A stretch of DNA of 64,000 bases. Origin: an uncultured Algibacter sp. (GTDB lineage: Bacteria; Bacteroidota; Bacteroidia; Flavobacteriales; Flavobacteriaceae). The stretch covers positions 1 to 64,000 of the forward strand of contig NZ_CANKXK010000012.1 of assembly GCF_947487605.1 (NCBI RefSeq), given 5' to 3'. Shown here in pieces: positions 5,165 through 44,230 of the stretch. The notes beneath the pieces are model-generated. The model was not told the DNA's origin, did not search any database, and saw nothing but the letters and a program-made list of their open reading frames with translations. How positions within the stretch are numbered: position 1 is the first letter of the stretch; every line of letters starts with the position of its first letter. The position numbers and the translations under genes are program-made.

Positions 5165-5983
5165 TTAGAGACTGTTTACCGTTTTTCTAATGGCAACAAG
5201 GTTAGTTAAAAGGCTTTCTAGATGATTTAGATGCAACATATTAGCACCATCACTTTTGGCATTAGTAGGATCAAAATGAGTTTCAATAAACAAGCCATCT
5301 ACATTATTTACAATACCAGCTCTTGCAATGGTTTCAATCATATCTGGGCGGCCACCAGTAACACCGCTAGATTGGTTTGGTTGTTGTAATGAATGGGTTA
5401 CATCTAAAACTGTAGGTGCAAATTCGCGCATAGTTGGTATGCCTCTAAAGTCTACAATCATGTCTTGGTAACCAAACATAGTGCCTCTATCTGTTATCCA
5501 AGCATTATTATTTCCTGCATCTTTCACTTTTTGTACGGCATGTTTCATAGCTTCGGGACTCATAAATTGACCTTTTTTCAAGTTAACAACCTTGCCAGTT
5601 TGCGCAGCTGCAACAACTAAGTCGGTTTGGCGAACTAAAAAAGCTGGAATTTGTAAAACATCTACATATTGAGCTGCCAAAGATGCATCTGAAACTTCAT
5701 GAATATCTGTAACTGTAGGAATATGAAATGTTTCTGAAACTTTTTTAAGAATTTTTAAAGCCTTTTCATTACCAATACCTGTAAAACTATCAATCCTACT
5801 TCTATTTGCTTTTTTAAAACTTCCTTTAAATATATAAGGTATTTCCAATTTATTAGTAATAGAAACTACTTTTTCGGCAATACGGAGTGCCATGTCTTCA
5901 CTTTCTATTGCACAAGGACCACATAGTAAAAAGAAATTGTTAGAGTTTAGGTGTTTTAACTTAGGAACATTATCAAGGTTCAT
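5165..5983 (-). CDS. kdsA: 3-deoxy-8-phosphooctulonate synthase KdsA
   Basis: KdsA condenses arabinose-5-phosphate with phosphoenolpyruvate to give Kdo-8-phosphate, the precursor of the Kdo in lipopolysaccharide inner core. The 272 residues are full length. The phosphate/PEP-binding LCGPCAIES motif lies at residues 20-28, followed by KGSFKKANRSR and the DRGTMFGY and SSGVTGGRPDMI loops. I chose the ATG at 5983, matching the usual length; a start 7 codons upstream would run through a perfect palindrome (5985-6000). The C in GPCAIES together with the later H and D residues could allow metal binding, but I cannot assign the metal class with certainty. Confidence 0.92.
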   Translation of the reverse strand: MNLDNVPKLKHLNSNNFFLLCGPCAIESEDMALRIAEKVVSITNKLEIPYIFKGSFKKANRSRIDSFTGIGNEKALKILKKVSETFHIPTVTDIHEVSDASLAAQYVDVLQIPAFLVRQTDLVVAAAQTGKVVNLKKGQFMSPEAMKHAVQKVKDAGNNNAWITDRGTMFGYQDMIVDFRGIPTMREFAPTVLDVTHSLQQPNQSSGVTGGRPDMIETIARAGIVNNVDGLFIETHFDPTNAKSDGANMLHLNHLESLLTNLVAIRKTVNSL

Positions 5984-5984
5984 T

Positions 5985-6000
5985 CGCTTAAATTTAAGCG
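5985..6000. promoter_or_regulatory. 16-bp palindrome directly before the kdsA start
   Basis: CGCTTAAATTTAAGCG is a perfect palindrome that ends one base before the chosen kdsA start codon. It could form an RNA hairpin over the translation initiation region or serve as a protein site. Its function is unproven; AT-rich DNA yields such palindromes more often than random. Confidence 0.35.
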
Positions 6001-6013
6001 GCAAAGTTACATA

Positions 6014-6373
6014 TTAAAAAGTTTCTTTTAAACTATTTCTTATAATCCATAGTGACATAACAAAATTTGCAAACACAAATAATCCGCTGTAAACCATAAG
6101 CCTTTTAAGAATTTGAGAAATAGATATAATATTTAGACTATCAGATATGTAAATAAAAATGAGGTAAGATGATATACAAACGAAAGTGATGCCTAAGGTA
6201 AAGTTTAAATCCTTACGAGGTTTAAATAATTGCCATACAAATGGAATGCCGAATAATAAAACTGGGTAAGCAATAAGCCCCTCACTTTTATTAATCATGG
6301 TAAAACAAAAAATGGTTGCAGCGATAAAGTATAAATAAGGAATAAACTTGGTATAACTTTTAAATGATTTCAT
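6014..6373 (-). CDS. Hypothetical membrane protein upstream of kdsA
   Basis: This 119-residue protein has four predicted membrane helices (about residues 8-26, 31-47, 55-74 and 90-110) and no recognised domain. I chose the ATG at 6373; a longer form would need a TTG start. It ends 30 bases before the kdsA start and probably forms an operon with it. Function unknown. Confidence 0.65.
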   Translation of the reverse strand: MKSFKSYTKFIPYLYFIAATIFCFTMINKSEGLIAYPVLLFGIPFVWQLFKPRKDLNFTLGITFVCISSYLIFIYISDSLNIISISQILKRLMVYSGLFVFANFVMSLWIIRNSLKETF

Positions 6374-6522
6374 AAAATGGTAATTCAATTAGTTTTTAAA
6401 TTAGGGTATCCTCTGTAAACAGTAAAACGACGAAAACTTAAGAATAGTTTTTACTAAACTCAATAATAACATATAATTAACTAAATATCAAAATATAATG
6501 TTTAAAATGTTAAAATATAGCG

Positions 6523-6530
6523 TACATTTG
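6523..6530 (+). promoter_or_regulatory. Promoter -7 box of typA
   Basis: TACATTTG matches the Bacteroidota -7 consensus TAnnTTTG. It lies 20 bases before the typA ATG, giving a very short leader. No TTG -33 element occurs at the usual spacing, so this is half a promoter by sequence. Confidence 0.5.
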
Positions 6531-6550
6531 CACGCTTAAAATAGGGCATT

Positions 6551-8350
6551 ATGGCTAGTATTAAAAACATTGCAATTATTGCACACGTAGATCATGGTAA
6601 AACTACTTTGGTTGACAAAATTATGTATCACTGTCAGTTATTTCGTGAAAACGAAAATACAGGGGATTTAATCCTTGATAATAATGATTTAGAAAGAGAA
6701 AGAGGTATTACAATTACTTCTAAAAATGTTTCTGTAATTTATAAAGACACTAAAATAAATATTATAGATACACCAGGTCACGCCGATTTTGGAGGAGAAG
6801 TTGAGCGTGTTCTTAATATGGCAGATGGTGTACTATTGTTAGTAGATGCTTTTGAAGGCCCTATGCCACAAACACGTTTTGTATTGCAAAAAGCAATAGA
6901 TTTAGGATTGAAGCCATGCGTGGTAATTAATAAAGTTGATAAAGAAAACTGTACACCAGATGAGGTACATGAGAAGGTTTTTGATTTAATGTTTGAATTA
7001 GGTGCAGAAGAGTGGCAACTCGACTTTCCAACAGTTTATGGTTCGGCTAAAAATAATTGGATGAGTGATGATTGGCAAAATGAAACTCAAAATATTGAGC
7101 CTTTATTAGACATGGTTATCGATCATATACCATCACCAAAAATTGAAGAAGGAACAACTCAAATGTTAATAACATCTTTAGATTTTTCATCTTTTACTGG
7201 AAGAATAGCTATTGGTCGTTTAACACGAGGGAAACTAAAAGTAGGACAGAATATTTCTTTGGTAAAAAGAGATAAATCTGTAGTGAAATCTAAAATAAAA
7301 GAACTTCATGTTTTTGAAGGCCTAGGTCGTTTAAAAGTTGAAAGTGTACAAACAGGCGATATTTGTGCTATTGTTGGTCTTGAAGGTTTTGAAATTGGTG
7401 ATACCGTAGCCGATTGGGAAGCTCCTGAGGGCTTAAAAACAATTGCTATTGATGAGCCAACGATGAGCATGTTATTTACAATTAACGATTCTCCATTTTT
7501 TGGAAAAGACGGTAAATATGTAACCTCTCGACATATAAAAGATCGTTTAAATAAAGAACTAGAGAAAAACTTGGCGCTTAGGGTTGAAGATACTGATAGT
7601 GCAGACAAGTTTATAGTATTCGGTCGTGGTGTATTACATTTATCTGTTTTAATTGAGACCATGCGTCGTGAAGGTTACGAGTTGCAAATTGGACAACCAC
7701 AGGTAATTATTAAAGAAATTGATGGCGTAAAATGTGAGCCAGTTGAAGAAATGACCATTGATTTACCTGAAACTGTTTCTGGTAAGGCTATTGAAATGGT
7801 TACTTTACGTAAGGGTGAGATGCTTAGTATGGAAGCCAAAGGAGATCGTATGGTATGCCAGTTTATGGTACCATCAAGAGGTATTATAGGTTTACGTAAT
7901 CAATTACTAACAGCTACAGCAGGTGAGGCTATTATGGCACACCGTTTTAAAGAATACCAACCACTAAAAGGAGGTATTCCAGAGAGACAAAATGGTAGTT
8001 TAGTGTCTATGGAAAAAGGTCAAGCCATTCCTTATTCTATTGACAAATTACAAGATAGAGGTAAGTTTTTTGTAGATCCAGGTGAAGATATTTATGAAGG
8101 TCAGGTTATTGGAGAAAATTCACGAGGTGACGATATGACTGTAAACGTTACCAAAACTAAAAAGTTAAGTAATGTACGTTCTTCTGGTGCAGATGATAAG
8201 GCTAAAATTGTTCCAGCTATTAAATTTTCTTTAGAAGAAGCTTTAGAATATATTCAAAAAGACGAGTATGTTGAGGTAACTCCAAATCACCTAAGGTTGA
8301 GAAAAGTATTTTTAACTGAAGTTGAGCGTAAACGAAATAAAGCATTATAA
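6551..8350 (+). CDS. typA: Ribosome-associated GTPase TypA/BipA
   Basis: This is a 599-residue translational GTPase of the EF-G superfamily that binds the ribosome and helps 50S assembly and stress adaptation. G1 (AHVDHGKT) is at residues 10-17, switch II (DTPGHADFGGE) near 73-83, and NKVDK near 127. Domains II, III and V and the BipA-specific C-terminal domain follow, with the typical RGIIGLRNQLLTATAGEAIMAHRF stretch divided over residues 440-465. Length and motifs are complete. It is monocistronic: a TAnnTTTG box lies 20 bases before it and a clear terminator 25 bases after it. Confidence 0.96.
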   Translation: MASIKNIAIIAHVDHGKTTLVDKIMYHCQLFRENENTGDLILDNNDLERERGITITSKNVSVIYKDTKINIIDTPGHADFGGEVERVLNMADGVLLLVDAFEGPMPQTRFVLQKAIDLGLKPCVVINKVDKENCTPDEVHEKVFDLMFELGAEEWQLDFPTVYGSAKNNWMSDDWQNETQNIEPLLDMVIDHIPSPKIEEGTTQMLITSLDFSSFTGRIAIGRLTRGKLKVGQNISLVKRDKSVVKSKIKELHVFEGLGRLKVESVQTGDICAIVGLEGFEIGDTVADWEAPEGLKTIAIDEPTMSMLFTINDSPFFGKDGKYVTSRHIKDRLNKELEKNLALRVEDTDSADKFIVFGRGVLHLSVLIETMRREGYELQIGQPQVIIKEIDGVKCEPVEEMTIDLPETVSGKAIEMVTLRKGEMLSMEAKGDRMVCQFMVPSRGIIGLRNQLLTATAGEAIMAHRFKEYQPLKGGIPERQNGSLVSMEKGQAIPYSIDKLQDRGKFFVDPGEDIYEGQVIGENSRGDDMTVNVTKTKKLSNVRSSGADDKAKIVPAIKFSLEEALEYIQKDEYVEVTPNHLRLRKVFLTEVERKRNKAL

Positions 8351-21396: not shown

Positions 21397-24300
21397 TTAT
21401 TTTATTGTAATTCTAGTGCCTTCACTATGGTTACTATATTCTGGTGCATACATGCTTTGTATAGTGGTAATGCCGTTACTCATATTACCAGCATTATTTA
21501 CTCTTAAATCATATTCGAAAACGTAAATGCCTTTTGGTAAATAGTCAAAAAAGAAATTGGTTGAAGCATCTTTTGTGCTTTCGTAATAACCCAAGCCATC
21601 TTGCCACTTATATTGGCTAAGAACATTTATAGGTTCTAAACCAGAGGCACGCATATCTTTCATGTGTATAAATTCCATGTTTCGGTCGCTTCTTAATTCT
21701 ATACGAACTCTCACTAAATCACCAACTTTTAATTGCGTGTTTTTATTAATCTCTGAAATTTCTTCACCTGTATCAGTATTCTTTTTTAAGAATAGCTTTT
21801 TCTTCAATTTCAAAGGGTGTTCCTGACTGCCGTCAGGCAGGTCTGCTGAAGTAATTTTATCCAAATCTTCAAAATATTGCCAATATAAACTTCCCCAAGC
21901 AATACCATTACCTTTTTTTGCAATGGTAACAGTTCCCATTTCTGGTTTAATTTCAGAAGAATTCCAAGCCGTTTTATAATAGCCTGTTCCAGCTTCAACT
22001 GTAACATCTTCTAATTTAGAAGGATTGATTTTTTGTCCGCCAATTATAACATCTACCATATCGGTAACCGAAAGCCAATCACTTCCTTGTAGTAATAAAA
22101 CATATATTGCTTCGGTGGTTGCTTTGGTTGTTTTCCAACGGTTTGTTTGCTTATTCTTGAGCAACCATATTTTTAAGGCATCAATAGTTTCAAGATTCTT
22201 TGCGTCGCTCTGAATAACAGATCCAGTTTCAGAAAAGACTTCAATTAACAATGCTTGTGTTTCAATTGGTGCCTGATACCAATACCATGAATTGGTGTTG
22301 GATTTCCAATACATACCTAATTCATCCGTAGTGATACTTGTTTCTTTTAATGACTTCAGAATTTTACTTGTTGTTTTTGAATCGTTCATTCTATTAGAAA
22401 CCAATGTCATTAATCCTTTTGAATATAATGAACGACTTAACCAATACTTTTGAATTTGTGTTTGATAATACTTGCTAATCTCGATAACTTCGTCTGGTTT
22501 TTTTATTTCCGGATAAAAGCTGCGCATATACAAATAGTGCAATTGTGTATAGCTTAAATGGTCTTTATTCAAATTTACATTAGCATCATACTTTCTTATG
22601 TCTTTATATTCTTTTACAAATTCATTATCCAAATAGTTGATGGCTTTTTGAATCATAGATTTTTCGTTGTTGTTCTGAATGACATTTAACTTTTTCAAAT
22701 GTCCGAAACCAGTTATAATATGCTGTGTAATGTATCGATTTTCATATCCGCCATTAAACCAAGACCAACCACCAGAAGGCATTTGATTATTTTTTAGTTT
22801 ACTAATAGCCAATTGCAATTCGTTATTCATTTTATTTAAATCGAATAAAAGTGCAATTCGTTTTTTCTGTTCGGTTTCGCTTTGTGCATCACGTAACCAA
22901 GGCGTTTCCTGAATTAAAATAGATTTGAGTTCTTGATTTTTTTCTAAGTTAGAAAGTAAAGCATCGGTGTTTCGCCATTGATTAAAAACTTCCTGAATTC
23001 TAGGGTTTGAATTTGCAATATGACTCGCCAAAGCATTAGCATAATACTTTGAGAATGTTTGTTCATTACATTCATAAGGATATTCCATTAGGTAAGGCAA
23101 CGCTTGCACTGCATACCATGCAGGGTTAGAAGTCATTTCTAAGGTAAGCTTATGGTTTTTAAGAGTTGTTGAGGTATTGGTTTTCAACTTATCTAAAGTG
23201 AATGTTTTAGTTTGATTGCTTTTAACCCACATAGGTAATGTCTCTGTCACCAACATGCGGTTATATAAAACAGGAAGTACATTTTGTTCGCCATCACTAA
23301 AAGCTTCCGATTTCGCGATTATTTTATATTGTACTGCTTGAACATCGTCTGGTATTGATAAATTCCAGGACACTTGCGTGTTGCCTTTAGCATCTACAAT
23401 AAAATCCCTCTCTGGCTTCACCATCTTTCCCGAAGGGAGAGAATTATTGGAATTGATAATGAGTTTTTGAGATATATTGTCTACTGAAACAGCATCAGTT
23501 AGAATTAAAACAGCTTGCCCCGAAAGTTGAGTTTCTGTAAGATTAGCAATTTTAGTACTTAAAGTAATTTGGTCGCCTTCACGTAAAAATCGAGGTGTGT
23601 TTGGAATTACCATAAGCTCCTTTTGGGTTATGGCTGTTAAAGATTGTGTCACACTTTCTAAAGTTTTAGTATGCGCTAACAATTGTAATTTCCATTGGGT
23701 TAAAGCTTCAGGAGTAGTGAAACTGAAACTTACGTTTCCTGCTTCATCTGTTTTTAACTGCGGAAAGAAAAAAGCTGTTTCTTGAAGGTTTTTACGAATT
23801 TTAATGTTGTTGAAGTTTGGTTTATCTTGTTCATTTTCCAAAATACTATCATGTAAATCTTCTCCTGCATTTAGTTGTTTTGCTGAATCTTTTTTCGACT
23901 TTTCACCGTAACCAACTACCACCACCTCATCTAGGTTATCATCACTTTCCATCATTAACACAGATTCTTGAACTTCCATTTCATCTGAAACAATTTGAAC
24001 ACCTGCTACGCGTCTACTAAGTGCATTGGAAACACTGGCATTACCTCTAATTCTTATAGAATGGTTGTATCTAAAACTAAACCCAAACCAATTTAATTGG
24101 TCATAGGATTGTCGGGAATAATTAGCCCGAAATCTATCTTGATATACTCTAAAATTTTGCGTACCAAAACTTTGGTTAGCATTGCTGCGGTTATTAGAAT
24201 AATATAGTGGATTGTTAATCGGGTTGAATACCCATGAATGCGATTTAAATTGATCCAGAGAGGCATCGTACATACTTGCTAATAATTCGGCACTTACTTG

Positions 24301-27300
24301 CTCTCCTTTTGGACCTTTAATTTTAAAGTTCCATGTTTCGTCGGTTCCTGGCTGTAATTTGTCTCTAAACGTCGTGGTTTCAATATTCAAATTCGTTTTT
24401 GGATAAGGTACAGAAATAGCCTGTGTTCCCGATTTAAAACCGTTAAACGCAGCAAAACTATAATGCACAACAAAACCACCCATATCTTCTTTTGTTACAG
24501 GAATGGAGATCGTTTTTTTATTATTATTAAGCTGAATAATTTCGGTACTAATTATTTTTCTATCTTTTTCAATAACTATAGTTACTGCTACATTTTGAGC
24601 AGCAGAGGCAATCGTTATTAGAGCGTTATCTCCAGAGTTGTAACTTGGTTTGTCTGTTGAGATATTAAATAATTGATTGTCTGATAGAGTTTTATCTTGA
24701 CTACTAAATAGGTTTATTCTAGTCTCGTCTTTTACTAATTGACCAAATTTATCTTTACTACTTAATGTGATTATATATTGTCCTGATTCCCAGTTTTTTA
24801 TTTTTCCAAGTTTTAGTTCTTTAGAATCTTTAGTGTTAAATGGTTCTTCAAAAACTAAAGCGCCTTTTTGCCAATTATTAGAATTGTCCTCATTTTTATA
24901 AGCATCATATGGGAAGAGATTTTTAAACGCTTCTTCCGAAAGAGTTTGGTAATCTGGAGCTGCCCAAGGCCGTTTTCTTAAAACACTACTTGGTGCTTTT
25001 AACTTATAGATTTTTATGATCCCTTTTGCAGGAACAAATTCGTTATTTAAGTTTTTTGTGTCAATAGAAATTTTGTGATCCTTTCTAGTTTTATCTACAG
25101 CTTCGTCAATAATCATGTTAGCAGTTAATGCATGATAACCAACTTTTACAATAGTTGTCGCGCTTCGGGTTTCGCCATTTATATCGGTGACATCTGCAAT
25201 AATTTCATAATTAAAAATGGGTAAACTACTTTTATCTACACTTTGGTCTGGTTGTGCATTAAAAATAATGTCAAATTCACCTTTATCGTTAGTAATACTT
25301 TCTCCATGAGCAATTTCTTGTGGCTCACTATTAAACCAAGGACGATACCAGAAATACCATCGCGGATATTCCACTTTTCTATGCACTCTATATACCACTT
25401 TCGCATCGGTAATATTACTACCCGCATAAGCTAGAGCATTACCTTTTACTGTTACAGAATCATTAATTTTAAAGGTTTCTGTAACAGGTTTGAATTTAGT
25501 TTCAAACTTTGGTCGCTTATATTCTTCCACAGAGAAATAATGGTTTTCTCTTATAGCACCAATTGTTGAATATATTTCAATGTAATATTGCCCATTTAAG
25601 CCATTATTTGGTAAAATAAACTCACCAGAAATTGAGCCAAATTCATTGGTTTCAAAGTCTAATTCAGATAGTTTCTCTCCGTTAGTATTATGTAAAGTCG
25701 CAAAAATTGTTTCGTTAGTAAGAAGTTCAGACTTCCCATTATTCTTCTTAACTATTATTGATTTAAAATATACGGTTTGATTAGGTCTATAAATACTTCT
25801 ATCGGTAAACAAAAAAGATTTATAATGTGTTCTTTCTTTTTGAGGCTTATAATTTTGGCTTATATAGTAATTGCCAAAATAAGCTATATCATTATTGCCT
25901 TTTACTTTTACCACTACATTTCTTAACCAGCCATTGTCCTTCTTAATTTTAATTTGCCCTAAATTATTAGTAGTATAATTTTTAGAAATTAAGTTTCTAT
26001 TATTTCTTGATTTATAAGATAATTCGGCATTGGTATTACTAATAGGAGCGCCATTATTCCTATCTATAACTTGAAATATTTTGTATTGGGCTGTTTCAGT
26101 TTCTACTAATGCCATATTTGTAACCTGCATGTTTGCAAATGCAAAACTTTCTGAATTATCAGATGTTTTTGCAACAATTAGATATAAACCATTAACGAGT
26201 TTAGGTACAATTATTTCAGTAGTATGTGTTTGGTAATCATTTTCGTTTCGAAGCTTACTCTTCCAAGTTTTGTATGATTTCAGATTGTTTATAAAGACTA
26301 ATTGTTCGTCTTTTCTGTAAGTATTTTTAAATTTTTCAAGTTGATTTTTATTTAGTTTATAAATATTAAATTGAAGTGAATTTAAATTTTTATAGCTAAC
26401 TAATAAACGTGTATCTTTTTGAATAGGTAAATACACCTCTGTAGTTATTTGAAGTTCTTGTTGCTCAATTTGTCGTTTTAAAATAGCACATTTTTCAGCA
26501 CCTTTGCTTTCAAGAAAATTCCCAAGAACGTTACTGCAAATAGTAATGGCGTCTTTTGCTTTCCAGCGGTTTTTATCATCTAAACTGTTACTGTATTGCT
26601 TACTTTGTTGAAAATAGATAGCCGCAATTTCAAAGTCGTATAATGCCGCAATTTCATGATGTTTCAATTTATCTTTTTCAGCTTTAAGCGCATTTAGCAG
26701 AATGGTTTCTTTGTCGTTAAATGTTGCATGCTGATTTACAAATTTTAAGCGTTCAATATTTACATTAGCTAAGGCCAATGGTGTTTCGTCCTTTAAATGA
26801 AATTGAATTAAATCTTGATAGATTTTTAGAGCATTCAATTGTAATGATGTCGAATCTTTTGAAGCTATATTAATTTCTGAAAAGGTATTCACATCAGCTA
26901 AAAAATCTGGATTGTCAATCTCAAACTTGTAAGCAGGTTTTGTAATATGAGTTTCATTTGTTTTATAAAACGCTAGAGCATTATGACATAGAAAATCAAA
27001 TACTGTAGGTCGGTAAATTTTTGAATCTTTTTGAAGGTTAAGTATCTCGTTATACTTACTTAAAGGTTCTAATTGTAACATCAAACCATTTTGTAATGAG
27101 TTTTTAAAATGGCTATCAATTTCGTTAAAAAGTGTTTGTAAATCCCATGTTCTAAAATCAGTTTTAGTAACCTTTTCTGCTACTTTGGTTCGGTTATAAA
27201 ATTGCCACCTGTGCTGATTAAAATATTGCCAATATAAATTCGCAAGAATACTTTCTAAAACATTTTTTGTTGGGAATTTACTGTTATTAATTTCAGTTTT

Positions 27301-27567
27301 AAGATCACTAATAACTTTTAGTTGTGCTTCTTCCTCTAAAACCAAAACAAACTTGCTTTTAAAGAGCATCGTTTTTATAAGCTGCGATGCGTTATCCTCT
27401 TTTTTTGCTATTTCCGAAATTTGCTCAACAATATCCAAAGCAGACTTTGGTAATCCATCTATTTCGAGTTTTTCAACTTTTTCCCATAAATCATTGTAAT
27501 GCTTTAATTGGGCATTAGAAAAGGAAGCTAAAAGTATAATCATTAACAGAGATAGCGTATGTTTCAT
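21397..27567 (-). CDS. Alpha-2-macroglobulin family protein with SusC-like insert motifs
   Basis: At 2056 residues this is the longest gene here. A signal peptide (1-19) is followed by a helical N-terminal region (20-370), MG domains including the FTDRSIYRPNQTVYFKS MG2 signature near residue 590, and the alpha-2-macroglobulin core. The thioester-type motif C-N-E-Q lies near residue 1500, in ECNEQTFSKYY, followed by the helical thioester domain and a C-terminal MG/receptor-like domain. Such proteins trap foreign proteases in the periplasm. Near 1175-1220 there are unexpected motifs: IRIRGNASVSNALSRRVAGV resembles a TonB plug, and LDEVVVVGYG is the SusC linker motif. Two short GC-rich repeats are read through in frame (21822-21841 and about 23425-23443). 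It is transcribed alone. Confidence 0.88.
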   Translation of the reverse strand: MKHTLSLLMIILLASFSNAQLKHYNDLWEKVEKLEIDGLPKSALDIVEQISEIAKKEDNASQLIKTMLFKSKFVLVLEEEAQLKVISDLKTEINNSKFPTKNVLESILANLYWQYFNQHRWQFYNRTKVAEKVTKTDFRTWDLQTLFNEIDSHFKNSLQNGLMLQLEPLSKYNEILNLQKDSKIYRPTVFDFLCHNALAFYKTNETHITKPAYKFEIDNPDFLADVNTFSEINIASKDSTSLQLNALKIYQDLIQFHLKDETPLALANVNIERLKFVNQHATFNDKETILLNALKAEKDKLKHHEIAALYDFEIAAIYFQQSKQYSNSLDDKNRWKAKDAITICSNVLGNFLESKGAEKCAILKRQIEQQELQITTEVYLPIQKDTRLLVSYKNLNSLQFNIYKLNKNQLEKFKNTYRKDEQLVFINNLKSYKTWKSKLRNENDYQTHTTEIIVPKLVNGLYLIVAKTSDNSESFAFANMQVTNMALVETETAQYKIFQVIDRNNGAPISNTNAELSYKSRNNRNLISKNYTTNNLGQIKIKKDNGWLRNVVVKVKGNNDIAYFGNYYISQNYKPQKERTHYKSFLFTDRSIYRPNQTVYFKSIIVKKNNGKSELLTNETIFATLHNTNGEKLSELDFETNEFGSISGEFILPNNGLNGQYYIEIYSTIGAIRENHYFSVEEYKRPKFETKFKPVTETFKINDSVTVKGNALAYAGSNITDAKVVYRVHRKVEYPRWYFWYRPWFNSEPQEIAHGESITNDKGEFDIIFNAQPDQSVDKSSLPIFNYEIIADVTDINGETRSATTIVKVGYHALTANMIIDEAVDKTRKDHKISIDTKNLNNEFVPAKGIIKIYKLKAPSSVLRKRPWAAPDYQTLSEEAFKNLFPYDAYKNEDNSNNWQKGALVFEEPFNTKDSKELKLGKIKNWESGQYIITLSSKDKFGQLVKDETRINLFSSQDKTLSDNQLFNISTDKPSYNSGDNALITIASAAQNVAVTIVIEKDRKIISTEIIQLNNNKKTISIPVTKEDMGGFVVHYSFAAFNGFKSGTQAISVPYPKTNLNIETTTFRDKLQPGTDETWNFKIKGPKGEQVSAELLASMYDASLDQFKSHSWVFNPINNPLYYSNNRSNANQSFGTQNFRVYQDRFRANYSRQSYDQLNWFGFSFRYNHSIRIRGNASVSNALSRRVAGVQIVSDEMEVQESVLMMESDDNLDEVVVVGYGEKSKKDSAKQLNAGEDLHDSILENEQDKPNFNNIKIRKNLQETAFFFPQLKTDEAGNVSFSFTTPEALTQWKLQLLAHTKTLESVTQSLTAITQKELMVIPNTPRFLREGDQITLSTKIANLTETQLSGQAVLILTDAVSVDNISQKLIINSNNSLPSGKMVKPERDFIVDAKGNTQVSWNLSIPDDVQAVQYKIIAKSEAFSDGEQNVLPVLYNRMLVTETLPMWVKSNQTKTFTLDKLKTNTSTTLKNHKLTLEMTSNPAWYAVQALPYLMEYPYECNEQTFSKYYANALASHIANSNPRIQEVFNQWRNTDALLSNLEKNQELKSILIQETPWLRDAQSETEQKKRIALLFDLNKMNNELQLAISKLKNNQMPSGGWSWFNGGYENRYITQHIITGFGHLKKLNVIQNNNEKSMIQKAINYLDNEFVKEYKDIRKYDANVNLNKDHLSYTQLHYLYMRSFYPEIKKPDEVIEISKYYQTQIQKYWLSRSLYSKGLMTLVSNRMNDSKTTSKILKSLKETSITTDELGMYWKSNTNSWYWYQAPIETQALLIEVFSETGSVIQSDAKNLETIDALKIWLLKNKQTNRWKTTKATTEAIYVLLLQGSDWLSVTDMVDVIIGGQKINPSKLEDVTVEAGTGYYKTAWNSSEIKPEMGTVTIAKKGNGIAWGSLYWQYFEDLDKITSADLPDGSQEHPLKLKKKLFLKKNTDTGEEISEINKNTQLKVGDLVRVRIELRSDRNMEFIHMKDMRASGLEPINVLSQYKWQDGLGYYESTKDASTNFFFDYLPKGIYVFEYDLRVNNAGNMSNGITTIQSMYAPEYSNHSEGTRITIK
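21822..21841. repeat. Palindromic repeat inside the macroglobulin gene
   Basis: CCTGACTGCCGTCAGGCAGG contains two overlapping inverted repeats (CCTGAC/GTCAGG and CTGCC/GGCAG). It is translated in frame as part of ADLPDGSQE near residue 1910. It looks like a dispersed intergenic hairpin that has settled in a coding region. Confidence 0.5.
23425..23443. repeat. Second in-frame hairpin repeat in the macroglobulin gene
   Basis: TCTTTCCCGAAGGGAGAGA is an imperfect inverted repeat (TCCC/GGGA core) and is followed on its left by another CCCTCTC-type arm at 23406-23412. It encodes the SLPSGKMVKPERDF segment near residues 1375-1388. The GC content is higher than in flanking DNA. Confidence 0.4.
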
Positions 27568-40951: not shown

Positions 40952-43900
40952 TTAAAAACTAGCTTTTAATGTTAGACCAACACTTCTTGTACTAGGACTT
41001 GCACTAAATTCACCAAATTGACTAGCTAAATCCGTACCAAATGTTGATACTTCAGGATCAATATATTGATTAGACTCAGGTGTGAAAAGCAAAAGATTTC
41101 TACCTACTACAGTAAGTGATATATCTTCAAAAGGTGTTTTTTCAATTATTTTTTTAGAGAACCTATATCCAAAAGTAACTTCTCTTAATTTAACATAAGA
41201 TTTATCAATAACGTCACCTCTTTCAACTGCTGAAGCACGGTAATAATCATCCCAATGTTCGTTATCTATAGCTGTCGTATTTTCTACATAAGTAAAATTG
41301 CCATTACCGTCATCAATTCTATTAACAGAACCTGGAATTATGTACGGTTGTCTATCATTTATCGTGGTTGTGATTGAGTTTCCTGTAAAACGTGTGAGAC
41401 TAGCAGTACGGCTATACATTAAGCCTCCTTGTCTTACATCAACTGATAGCCCTAGAGAAAACCCCTTATATGTAAAACTATTAGTAATACCTAAAGTATA
41501 GTCATATTGAGTATCTCCATAAACCTCTTTAACAGGTGATGCAATTGGAACACCTACATTATCAACAACAATATTTCCGTTTGGATCTCTTAGAGGAACA
41601 CTACCTTCAATAAGTGCTAAAGGAAATCCTTGTCTTGCAACTAAGCTAATAGTACTCAAACCACCAAGAGCAATTTGTGGTACTCTATCATCCAGTTTTT
41701 CTAATACGGCATCATTTGTAGAATAATTTATTGCCATGTCCCAATTAAACCCATCATGATTTCTAAAAACTCCAAGGGTTAGAAGGGCTTCATAACCAGT
41801 ATTAGAGATAGTACCTATGTTGGCAGTTTGATTTGTGAAACCAGAAGTTGACGCTAAGGGTAAGGCCAAAATTTGATCTTCAACTGTAGCATCATAATAC
41901 GTAAAATCTATGCTAATACGGTTCTTTAAAAAAGATAATTCAGTTCCAATTTCAAACTCTTTTCGTCTTTCAGGCGCTAGATTTGGATTTCCAGCTCTAT
42001 TTCCAACTTCAAAAGCGTTTAGGCCACCTACTGGGAAATTAAGATTTCTAAATCCTTGGTTGTCTGTTGCTCCTAAAATATTAACGGGATTAATACTATA
42101 TGGAGCTGTATCTACACCAGTTTCTCCATATCCTAATCTTAGTTTTCCATAACTAAGGATGTTTTTTATTTCTGGAAAACTTTTTGTTATTATCCATGAA
42201 GCATTTGCGCCTCCATAAAGAACAGATCTATTTTCTTCTGGTAAGGTAGAATACCAATCGTTTCTAACATTAGTAGTAAGAAAGAGCATGTCTTTATAAG
42301 AGACTGTAGTGGAATTTAATACACCATAAAGTCTCCTCTTTGAAATTGTTGAAGCTGCAGTAATAGGACTAGCTGAGTTAGATAGTGAAAAGAAATCTGG
42401 TATATCCTGTGAAGTAACATTAGCACTAGATCCTGATGTTGTTCTATCATTGTAGTTAAAGCCAATGGTAGAGGTAAGATGGAAATTCTCGTTTAAATTA
42501 AAATCAAGATTATATAAAATATCATGATTAACCTGTTTTACATTATTTTGAGCTTCACCATAAAACCCAGGGATTTCTATACTAGTACCATCATTAGGGC
42601 TCCCAGGAGATGCATCTATAATGGCATTCCATATTTTCGTGTAGTCATTGTATGAATCTATACCTAGTCTGTATGATACGTTTGACCAATCATTAATTTG
42701 AGCACTAACATTAAATGAACCATAAACTCTTTCTTTCGTATATTTAGCCCCATCTTCATTAAGATTAAAGTAAGGATTTACAATTCCGAAACCAGTATAG
42801 TAATTATCAATATTATTAAAAGGGTCGTTTTTATAGTCTTTAAATTCTGTAATATCAAAATCAGTGGGAATCTGCATTAAGTTATTAATAGTGTTAGTTC
42901 CCTGCCCACCTTGAACACCAGAACCTCTAGTGCTTACATAATTTAAATTACCTCCAAAGGTTAAGAAACCCATCTTAGAATTGAATGTAAGAGAAATAGT
43001 GTTTCTTTCATTAGAATCATTGGCTGTTGGGAATATCCCATCTGAAGTTGTATTATTAAAAGATATTCTACCTGAAGAGTTTCCCGAACCGCCAGAAATA
43101 GCAACATTGGTTACATAAGAGGTGCCAATATCGAAAAAGTTCCTCCATTGATCTTCTTGAAAAGAGTAAGGTTTTATTTTCTGTGAATTGTTTACAACAT
43201 TACCCCAAGGTAATACTTCGCCTGTAAAACGAGGTCCCCAAGAACCGTTTTCACCTAAAAAATGCTGCCCATCCCAACCTTGTCCAAACTGAGTTTGGTA
43301 GTTAGGAGCTCTCAAAAGATCTGAAAATATTGCAGTTGTAGAAAAATCAATACTTAATTTATCTGTAGACCCTTGTTTTGTTGTAATAATTACAACACCA
43401 TTAGCTGCCCTTGAACCATAAAGTGCTGTACTAGAAGCACCTTTAAGGATAGAAATTGACTCGATGTTTTCTGGATTTATATCTCCAGATCCACGACCAA
43501 AATCGTATGAACCATTTAGGCTATCTTCAAAATTTGATTGGTTGTTAATTGGAACACCATCAATAATATATAAAGGTTGATTACTACCACCTATGGTACT
43601 AAACCCTCTAATAATAATTCCAGAAGAAGAACCAGGGTCTGTACTAGCACTAGAAATAACGACACCTGCTACTTTACCTTTGATAGCATCTGCTATATTA
43701 GCTTGTGCTCCTTCATTTAATTCTTCTGAACCAATACTAGTTATTGCTGACCCAATAGAACCCTTTTCTCTTTTAATTCCTAAAGCAGTTACCACTACTT
43801 CTTCTAGGGACTCTGCATCTTCTTGCATAGTAACATTAATTATACTTGAAGTTCCTACAACTATTTCTTGTGATGAATACCCAACAAAACTAAATACAAG

Positions 43901-44110
43901 GGTTGCTCCTTGATTCACATTGATTGAATACTTACCATCGAAATCTGTAGAGGCACCAGAAGTTGTACCTTTAACTAAGACAGTAGTTCCAGGTAATGGT
44001 AATCCACTATTGTCGGATACCGTACCAGAAATTGTCTTTTCTTGCGCAAACGTTAGTTGCACAGCAAACGCCAGTAAAAGCGTTAGCATTCCACTAAACT
44101 TTGTTTTCAT
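40952..44110 (-). CDS. SusC/RagA family TonB-linked outer-membrane transporter
   Basis: The 1052-residue protein has a signal peptide (ends at about residue 23, TFAQ), a carboxypeptidase-regulatory-like domain (ISGTVSDNSGLPLPGTTVLV), the linker LEEVVVTALGIKREK near residue 105, the plug (SIGSEELNEG to ILKGASSTALYGSRAANGVV) and a 22-stranded barrel ending in VGLTLKASF. It imports a glycan or peptide together with the SusD protein, powered by TonB. I chose ATG 44110, which places the signal peptide at the N-terminus. No glycoside hydrolase, sulfatase or anti-sigma/ECF pair lies near, so the substrate stays open. Confidence 0.93.
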   Translation of the reverse strand: MKTKFSGMLTLLLAFAVQLTFAQEKTISGTVSDNSGLPLPGTTVLVKGTTSGASTDFDGKYSINVNQGATLVFSFVGYSSQEIVVGTSSIINVTMQEDAESLEEVVVTALGIKREKGSIGSAITSIGSEELNEGAQANIADAIKGKVAGVVISSASTDPGSSSGIIIRGFSTIGGSNQPLYIIDGVPINNQSNFEDSLNGSYDFGRGSGDINPENIESISILKGASSTALYGSRAANGVVIITTKQGSTDKLSIDFSTTAIFSDLLRAPNYQTQFGQGWDGQHFLGENGSWGPRFTGEVLPWGNVVNNSQKIKPYSFQEDQWRNFFDIGTSYVTNVAISGGSGNSSGRISFNNTTSDGIFPTANDSNERNTISLTFNSKMGFLTFGGNLNYVSTRGSGVQGGQGTNTINNLMQIPTDFDITEFKDYKNDPFNNIDNYYTGFGIVNPYFNLNEDGAKYTKERVYGSFNVSAQINDWSNVSYRLGIDSYNDYTKIWNAIIDASPGSPNDGTSIEIPGFYGEAQNNVKQVNHDILYNLDFNLNENFHLTSTIGFNYNDRTTSGSSANVTSQDIPDFFSLSNSASPITAASTISKRRLYGVLNSTTVSYKDMLFLTTNVRNDWYSTLPEENRSVLYGGANASWIITKSFPEIKNILSYGKLRLGYGETGVDTAPYSINPVNILGATDNQGFRNLNFPVGGLNAFEVGNRAGNPNLAPERRKEFEIGTELSFLKNRISIDFTYYDATVEDQILALPLASTSGFTNQTANIGTISNTGYEALLTLGVFRNHDGFNWDMAINYSTNDAVLEKLDDRVPQIALGGLSTISLVARQGFPLALIEGSVPLRDPNGNIVVDNVGVPIASPVKEVYGDTQYDYTLGITNSFTYKGFSLGLSVDVRQGGLMYSRTASLTRFTGNSITTTINDRQPYIIPGSVNRIDDGNGNFTYVENTTAIDNEHWDDYYRASAVERGDVIDKSYVKLREVTFGYRFSKKIIEKTPFEDISLTVVGRNLLLFTPESNQYIDPEVSTFGTDLASQFGEFSASPSTRSVGLTLKASF

Positions 44111-44230
44111 TTTATAATTATTTGAATTAGTCAATGCCAAAAATCTTAATAATAAGTTAATAAAACAACAATTTCTAGTTAAAATTTCTTGTAGAACTCA
44201 AAAAAATTAATAAAATGTTAAAAAAAAGAG

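Follow-up and report, generated by a model that had tools for sequence, protein, structure and literature searches.

Alpha-2-macroglobulins of Flavobacteriaceae with bait regions related to the N-termini of TonB-dependent receptors

Introduction

Some plant NLR immune receptors contain integrated decoys, in which an immune protein bears a copy of its attacker's target. Which targets are caught by bacterial alpha-2-macroglobulins (A2Ms) is, to our knowledge, an open question. For ECAM, a thioester-containing bacterial A2M, one report (PMC4498604) describes about 20 bait residues that are unseen in the cleaved protein and an anchor in the inner membrane. For the SusC receptor Bt1763, another report (PMC7782687) gives VDEVVV as a TonB box required for growth on levan, with an N-terminal extension (Pfam 13715) upstream of it.

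Here we describe P0001, an A2M gene in a 64,000-nucleotide stretch of DNA from an uncultured Algibacter sp. (the window), together with its relatives. Its receptor-like bait connects two large periplasmic systems, the A2M protease traps and the TonB-dependent receptors. Among open-licence papers, none was found that treats A2M with a plug domain and TonB, or a TonB box with a thioester, and a broader search gave no A2M–receptor link by title or abstract start among the matches listed.

Domain organisation of P0001

P0001 resembles ECAM and other thioester bacterial A2Ms in its MG domains, a bait placed before the A2M domain, a CxEQ motif and a bMG10 C-terminus. Its features, all on the minus strand, are the following.

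21397..27567, minus strand: A2M gene P0001, 2056 aa (open reading frame and Pfam)
25528..25818, minus strand: MG2 domain, residues 584-680 (Pfam PF01835, E 3e-19)
24313..24666, minus strand: A2M bait-region domain A2M_BRD, residues 968-1085 (Pfam PF07703, E 2.6e-8)
24073..24252, minus strand: conserved pre-bait stretch, residues 1106-1165, with NWFGFSF at its end (comparison of relatives)
23809..24072, minus strand: hypervariable bait core, predicted disordered, residues 1166-1253 (relatives and structure prediction)
24025..24057, minus strand: IRG plug motif IRIRGNASVSN, residues 1171-1181 (sequence, patterns, matrices)
23992..24024, minus strand: plug motif ALSRRVAGVQI, SusC counterpart ALQGRVAGV, residues 1182-1192 (sequence, patterns, matrices)
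23890..23934, minus strand: TonB box LDEVVVVGYG(EKSKK), in full LDEVVVVGYGEKSKK, residues 1212-1226 (TIGR04056 positions 68-94, matrices)
23515..23778, minus strand: A2M family domain PF00207, residues 1264-1351, immediately after the bait (Pfam)
23059..23076, minus strand: thioester motif (Y)ECNEQ, residues 1498-1503 (sequence)
21439..21813, minus strand: bMG10 domain, residues 1919-2043 (Pfam, E 1.2e-31)

MG2, A2M_BRD, A2M and bMG10 all scored above their Pfam cut-offs, which places P0001 in the A2M superfamily, and CxEQ lies in the context PYECNEQ at 1497-1503; by domain content and motif, P0001 is a thioester-type bacterial A2M. The N-terminus, MKHTLSLLMIILLASFSNAQ, resembles a signal peptide by eye, and the protein is probably located in the periplasm. 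Unlike ECAM, P0001 has a bait segment of 148 aa with receptor sequence, shows no lipobox by eye and has no pbpC-like neighbour. The sole BiPBP_C (pbpC-like) gene of the genome lies on contig C2, where its end is about 3.9 kb from a second, ECAM-like A2M with a lipobox-like LAVSC, likewise judged by eye. None of five receptor patterns was found anywhere in this second protein, a control that consists of a single gene.

An earlier note on this DNA had reported plug-like IRIRG and RVAGV elements and a SusC linker motif in P0001, and these are indeed present, at residues 1171-1192 and 1212-1226. They sit between the end of A2M_BRD at residue 1085 and the start of PF00207 at residue 1264; since A2M baits are located between these two domains, we take the stretch to be the bait region. 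The baits of close relatives diverge abruptly right after NWFGFSF. In P0001 the motifs run IRG, RVAGV, TonB box, the reverse of the SusC order (TonB box, RVAGV, IRG). LDEVVV is identified as a TonB-box sequence by its correspondence to VDEVVV of Bt1763 (PMC7782687).

Profile searches of the kind that the note had proposed gave a mixed outcome: A2M PF00207 was matched, Pfam Plug was matched neither in the whole of P0001 nor in the bait segment alone, and the NCBIfam SusC/RagA model TIGR04056 matched the segment at E 1.9e-4, a score well short of the curated cut-off of that model. This match covers the TonB-box stretch (profile positions 68-94), so that the TonB-box sequence of SusC/RagA proteins is found in the bait, and it does not appear when the whole 2056-aa protein is searched. 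No beta-barrel domain was detected in P0001 by Pfam, and the combination of plug and barrel that marks a SusC receptor is therefore missing. The window bait is predicted to be disordered, with pLDDT mostly 25-45, which fits a protease-cleavable bait whose cutting would trigger collapse and covalent trapping.

Resemblance to receptors beyond chance

Of 199 genomes searched in the family set, 114 gave matches, and baits were read at 90 A2M loci from 87 genomes, with the receptor loci L001-L005 left out. The strict TonB-box linker pattern was found in 42 of these 90 homologous baits (0.01 expected from shuffles), the RVAGV pattern in 41 (0.7 expected), the IRG pattern in 27 (0.8 expected) and the plug-end pattern in 19 (0.03 expected). 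All four were absent from 944 control fragments of the same length taken from the same A2M proteins.

Weight matrices built from receptor N-termini, with a threshold of 1% per sequence set by shuffles, were applied to 180 distinct baits among 200 loci. With 1.8 matches expected for each motif, 99 were obtained for the TonB box, 71 for RVAGV, 52 for IRG and 36 each for LIDG and the plug end. The window bait exceeded the threshold for the TonB box, RVAGV and IRG. At least one motif was present in 128 of the 180 baits and none in 52; seven extra-family loci are included in these counts, and their removal gives 125 of 173.

A codon pattern for E-V-V-V-x-G-Y-G, allowing at most one mismatch, occurs at 12 places in the whole window genome, nine of them exact. 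One exact place is the P0001 bait, and each of the 11 others adjoins a plug-domain match; the reversed pattern, run as a control over the same genome, gave no place at all. Chance resemblance is ruled out by the shuffles, the control fragments, the matrices and the codon pattern, and baits of the P0001 type are, on sequence grounds, homologous to receptors. The earlier note had named orthologues without the motifs as a sign of chance, and the distribution above runs the other way; its remark that a macroglobulin should need neither motif is probably wrong for Bacteroidota.

Receptor sequence in the baits of relatives

Of the 90 family baits, 32 have a Pfam match to CarbopepD_reg_2, 18 have one to Plug and 51 are matched by TIGR04056 (best E 7.9e-84). 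The bait module of L057 spans positions 3-209 of the 981 in TIGR04056 and is matched by solved SusC chains at E 1.3e-36. The N-terminal unit of full-module A2Ms is thus homologous to that of SusC/RagA receptors; unlike these, the A2M module has no beta-barrel and is embedded in a bait, and P0001 has three short reversed motifs only.

Sorted by rough pattern states, 15 of the 90 baits have a full SusC N-terminal unit, 17 a carboxypeptidase-like part, 4 a plug part and 32 motifs only, with none detected in 22; the sorting is approximate, as the carboxypeptidase-like state of L073 looks false by eye and such a domain was missed in L095. A further 110 loci, for which the best 80 of 558 relatives were taken, comprise 42 with motifs, 40 with none, 10 with a plug part, 10 with a carboxypeptidase-like part and 8 with a full unit. 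Among the matches listed, a plug or full unit is present in, for example, Wocania arenilitoris, Formosa algae, Mangrovimonas spongiae and Lutibacter citreus.

Motif order in the short baits is free. Among those with at least two motifs, the non-receptor orders were RVAGV before the TonB box (11), IRG before the TonB box (6), IRG-RVAGV-TonB box (4) and IRG before RVAGV (1), and the receptor orders were TonB box before RVAGV (2) and RVAGV before IRG (2). Nineteen short baits, among the 180 distinct ones, carry RVAGV and/or IRG only. In 87 of the 90 homologues CxEQ stands where it is expected (L069, L076 and L093 lack it there), and 76 have the strict thioester pattern.

Structure prediction, also suggested in the note, gave disorder for the P0001 segment and a partly folded module for L049, a homologue with the full unit. 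In L049 the carboxypeptidase-like domain (pLDDT about 80-85) and the second half of the plug (72-80) are predicted to be folded, and the TonB-box linker between these lobes is predicted to be disordered (25-46). A fold search with L049 returned complement and A2M chains, including ECAM, at low whole-length TM-scores (0.16-0.35). The idea of a captured piece serving as bait therefore holds in part: SusC homology, the bait position and a near-complete SusC N-terminal unit at the same place in relatives agree with it, and a folded plug in P0001 itself does not, given the lack of a Pfam Plug match, the predicted disorder and the three short reversed motifs.

Other sequence was also seen in baits. 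A GldJ model matches two family baits, L033 at E 1.1e-9, and GldJ-like DFNxYRGN stretches occur in four of 220 distinct baits (L033, L165, L223, L271). The baits of L007, L028, L030, L031 and L159 have an ALVFNSRTEQSGGxIxSEIxKKE-like stretch in common. Nothing useful came from searching the PDB with the baits of L033 and L028, and a plasmid search with the window bait gave no match.

Candidate roles of the receptor-like bait

We tentatively favour, at somewhat less than even confidence, the reading that the P0001 bait is an integrated decoy, whose likeness to receptors lets agents that act on receptor N-termini set off the trap. The bait would be built from the N-termini of TonB-dependent receptors, in most cases of SusC with its carboxypeptidase-like domain, TonB box and plug; that of the window genome would hold the TonB box and two plug motifs only, permuted. 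A hypothetical attacker that cuts or handles receptor N-termini in the periplasm, either a delivered effector or a protease of foreign origin that had crossed the outer membrane, would encounter the same sequence in the bait and cleave it. The cleaved A2M would then collapse, its CNEQ thioester forming a covalent link with the attacker. Proteases recognise short linear sites, so that fragments, even in permuted order, would be enough. The likeness to plant NLR decoys would be an analogy without common ancestry.

The location of the bait between A2M_BRD and PF00207, the retention of CxEQ in nearly all homologues, the frequency of SusC/RagA matches and motifs and the free motif order all argue for the decoy, as does the ECAM-like A2M of the same genome without receptor patterns, although that control is one gene. 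Against it stand the hypothetical nature of the attacking agent, the 52 distinct baits without a receptor motif, the three homologues without CxEQ at the expected place and the 15 full modules, whose predicted folded domains would make a poor classical bait. Candidate attackers follow from a bait that copies receptors, and the question of A2M targets becomes testable by cleavage and TonB-binding assays.

The same motif counts bear on a second, rather unlikely reading, in which the TonB box of the bait binds TonB in the periplasm, so that the A2M is tethered to the energised ExbB/D-TonB complex or the bait is pulled by TonB; positioning, arming or resetting of the trap would then depend on TonB. 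The TonB box is the commonest motif in the distinct baits, LDEVVV corresponds to the box that Bt1763 requires according to PMC7782687, and in the full-module model the box lies in a predicted disordered linker between folded lobes. No TonB box was detected in 81 of the 180 baits, however, and the 19 short baits noted above have plug elements only. We know of no TonB binding by RVAGV or IRG, and these elements would be superfluous for TonB engagement.

Exchange of bait cores and relative conservation of the motifs

On a FastTree tree of the A2M flanks with 90 rows, the five bait states require at least 38 changes, against a mean of 48.9 after shuffling; the number is below the shuffled mean, and some inheritance of the bait state therefore occurs too. 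The borders of the exchanged core are sharp, lying just after NWFGFxFGN and just before IRKNLxETAFFFP. In the Winogradskyella pair L166/L182 the flanks are 94/96% identical in amino acids and the bait core 29%, and in the Algibacter pair L152/L229 the values are 94/89% and 24%, with DNA 97-100% identical in four consecutive 60-base windows a short way ahead of the break. In the Maribacter pair L184/L192 (flanks 96/91%, core 58%), L184 has LDEVVTVGYG and no RVAGV motif, and L192 has a degenerate box with LEGRVAGVEI about 20 residues further. These comparisons indicate that bait cores are exchanged fast between close relatives. Under the decoy reading, such turnover would track a changing set of attackers, and it supplies a natural set of baits for comparison.

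Selection was assessed on 11 window-like baits chosen by eye. Mean modal identity was 0.74 in the motif columns and 0.44 in the spacers, and none of 79 slid labelings reached as high a value. Nei-Gojobori dN/dS was 0.18 for the TonB box, 0.25 for RVAGV and 0.42 for IRG; it was 0.27 for the motifs together, 0.56 for the spacers and 0.08-0.13 for the flanks and pre-bait stretch. With dS close to saturated and the alignment anchored in part by the motifs themselves, the relative conservation of receptor motifs in this one group of baits is support for the decoy, not proof. Its value is lower for the TonB box than for the other two motifs, and this lower dN/dS also suits engagement of TonB.

Sources of the receptor pieces

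A profile search found 38 plug places in the window genome. One receptor gene lies within the window:

40952..44140, minus strand: SusC-type receptor gene (CarboxypepD_reg, plug and barrel) with linker SLEEVVVTALGIKRE (Pfam and eye)

By eye, this receptor belongs to a 'FAQEKT' subclass, as do the nearest receptors of several A2M modules from other genomes. In the 'FAQEKT' SusC genes L096, L145, L134, L331 and L328, in-frame translation ahead of the start codon gives TNSNNYK or TNSNNCF, which suggests a conserved leader there.

A quick tree was built from 14 A2M units and 41 receptor-type N-termini; owing to the module pattern, L066 (one of the 15 full modules) and nine of 50 receptor loci are missing from the tree and the matrices, and one of the 41 'SusC' rows in both, L115, is a VWA/YfbK protein. 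Most A2M units cluster on this tree, and a single clade is allowed (p-AU 0.504); the unit of L064 forms a group with a SusC from the same genome, L134. Across ten genomes, with at most three SusC genes compared from each, the SusC that best matched the A2M unit came from the same genome in four cases (label permutation p 0.002-0.003). The A2M plug of W. ludwigii is 62% identical to SusC L331 of the same genome, whose SusC/RagA match is above the cut-off, and 59% identical to the YfbK-type VWA protein L335, also of that genome, against at most 49% among the matches listed in two other Winogradskyella. For the L229 bait no near donor was found in its own genome (best 38-39%). The own-genome matches lead us to infer that exchange with local receptors has been added to inheritance in some lineages, as it seems from these identities.

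Two simpler origins were rejected. One is a recent short-tract copy in the window genome: the 23 TonB-box bases are identical to none of the other 11 copies, so no recent copy was made over that stretch. Simple decay of one ancestral plug domain cannot alone explain the reversed order; one clade of full modules is allowed by the AU test.

Turnover and local donors could also arise without any function. The bait would then be a tolerant, disordered site to which abundant exported receptor paralogues donate sequence by recombination, the pieces decaying afterwards, and we consider this unlikely. The 38 plug places as potential donors, the number of state changes, the four modules best matched by SusC of their own genome and the W. 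ludwigii plug are what it would predict. Neutral capture thus explains the turnover and leaves the motif conservation and the repeated choice of receptors unexplained. Motif columns are conserved above spacers, receptor pieces recur in distant lineages where they match the local receptors, the other A2M of the window genome is free of the patterns, a second thioester family retains its plug, and simple decay does not yield a permuted order.

Plug sequence in other proteins

L339 (1129-5703 in G582, Winogradskyella) encodes a C3/TEP-like protein of 1524 aa with MG2, plug, A2M and a complement-type TED. In proteins of this type, of about 1,520 residues, the A2M domain is immediately preceded by a TonB box and plug, as in P0001-type A2Ms; the domain set is different. 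TonB-box-like and plug sequence was present in 7 of 7 full-length homologues examined (L342-L348), in L342 also by Pfam, and the strict thioester pattern PYGCFEQ in four of the seven. Its recurrence in this second thioester family suggests that such an architecture follows a more general rule in Bacteroidota. The plug of the L339 family seems, from sequence comparison, to have been inherited with the flanks and not swapped, which fits a domain function better than the decoy; the constant presence of the TonB-box-like stretch agrees with TonB engagement. Directly upstream of the L339 gene, the ORF 5709-7367 looks by eye like a portion of a receptor barrel and has no Pfam match.

In the window genome, L146 (contig C6, 497-2818) is a 773-aa protein with CarboxypepD_reg, a TonB-box-like linker, a plug and a YfbK-type VWA. 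L149 (contig C11, 2-1345) is an M56 (BlaR1-like) peptidase that ends in half a plug. L355 (contig C10, 940-3411; 824 aa) contains LDEVVVTGKAK and has weak MG2 and plug matches below the cut-offs, with no A2M or TED match.

Such carriers could be read as parts of a quality-control sensor, in which a chaperone or protease acting on unassembled receptors would recognise the piece in the A2M and in other envelope proteins, the YfbK-type VWA protein and the M56 peptidase, and these carriers would thereby report on or regulate receptor assembly. The co-occurrence of the L146, L149 and L355 genes in one genome and the 59% identity between the VWA and A2M plugs of W. ludwigii point in this direction. 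We nevertheless consider it improbable: the recognising factor is hypothetical, a cell would harm itself by trapping its quality-control protease, and the exchange of baits is left unexplained.

Baits beyond the family

Outside the family, 47 A2M baits were read, of which seven came from the search and 40 were chosen by eye among its listed matches; the same list has at least nine further A2M-sized places that were left out, and three of the 47 were found partly through the module itself. By the matrices, 21 of the 47 have at least one motif, the motif matches of L274 and L295 and the RVAGV match of L253 among them looking weak by eye. Motifs are present in 7 of the 8 baits from the same order, in 12 of the 22 from the same class and in 2 of the 17 from elsewhere in the phylum. 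The extra-family L298 and L304 have plug matches.

Two baits from distant phylum-level lineages, L258 and L276, match plug regions of receptors in their own genomes. The G323 bait reached 49% identity (E 8e-7, four ORFs under 0.001) and the G381 bait 52% (E 3e-5), and a Pfam plug was present in all five matched proteins that were read. These two baits have no match to receptor HMMs, and their receptor nature is deduced from the same-genome matches. The receptors that they match score 31-104 bits with TIGR04056 (cut-off 368) and lack the SusC signature TIGR04057; their loci are truncated at 641-709 aa, but L331, truncated to the same degree, scores 498 bits and has TIGR04057. From the low scores and the absent signature, they are placed outside SusC/RagA proper, and the receptor pieces of these distant lineages point to separate captures.

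The extra-family motifs and the two distant baits that match their own receptors argue for the decoy, and the low proportion in the phylum outside the class argues against it. The presence of other envelope pieces in baits is also in its favour: GldJ in L033 and, in L293, a TSP3 repeat at E 3e-4, below the Pfam cut-off. A still more tentative extension is that Bacteroidota thioester proteins may be innate-defence decoys whose bait is assembled from, and time and again renewed with, N-terminal pieces of the cell's own outer-membrane receptors, and sometimes pieces of GldJ or TSP3-repeat proteins; foreign agents that act on these proteins would then spring a covalent trap.

In G381, the VWA protein L314, which has no Pfam plug match and a plug-like stretch by eye, and the A2M bait L276 both contain PNPQIAxGAxKxNRIYDSxVTTQ.
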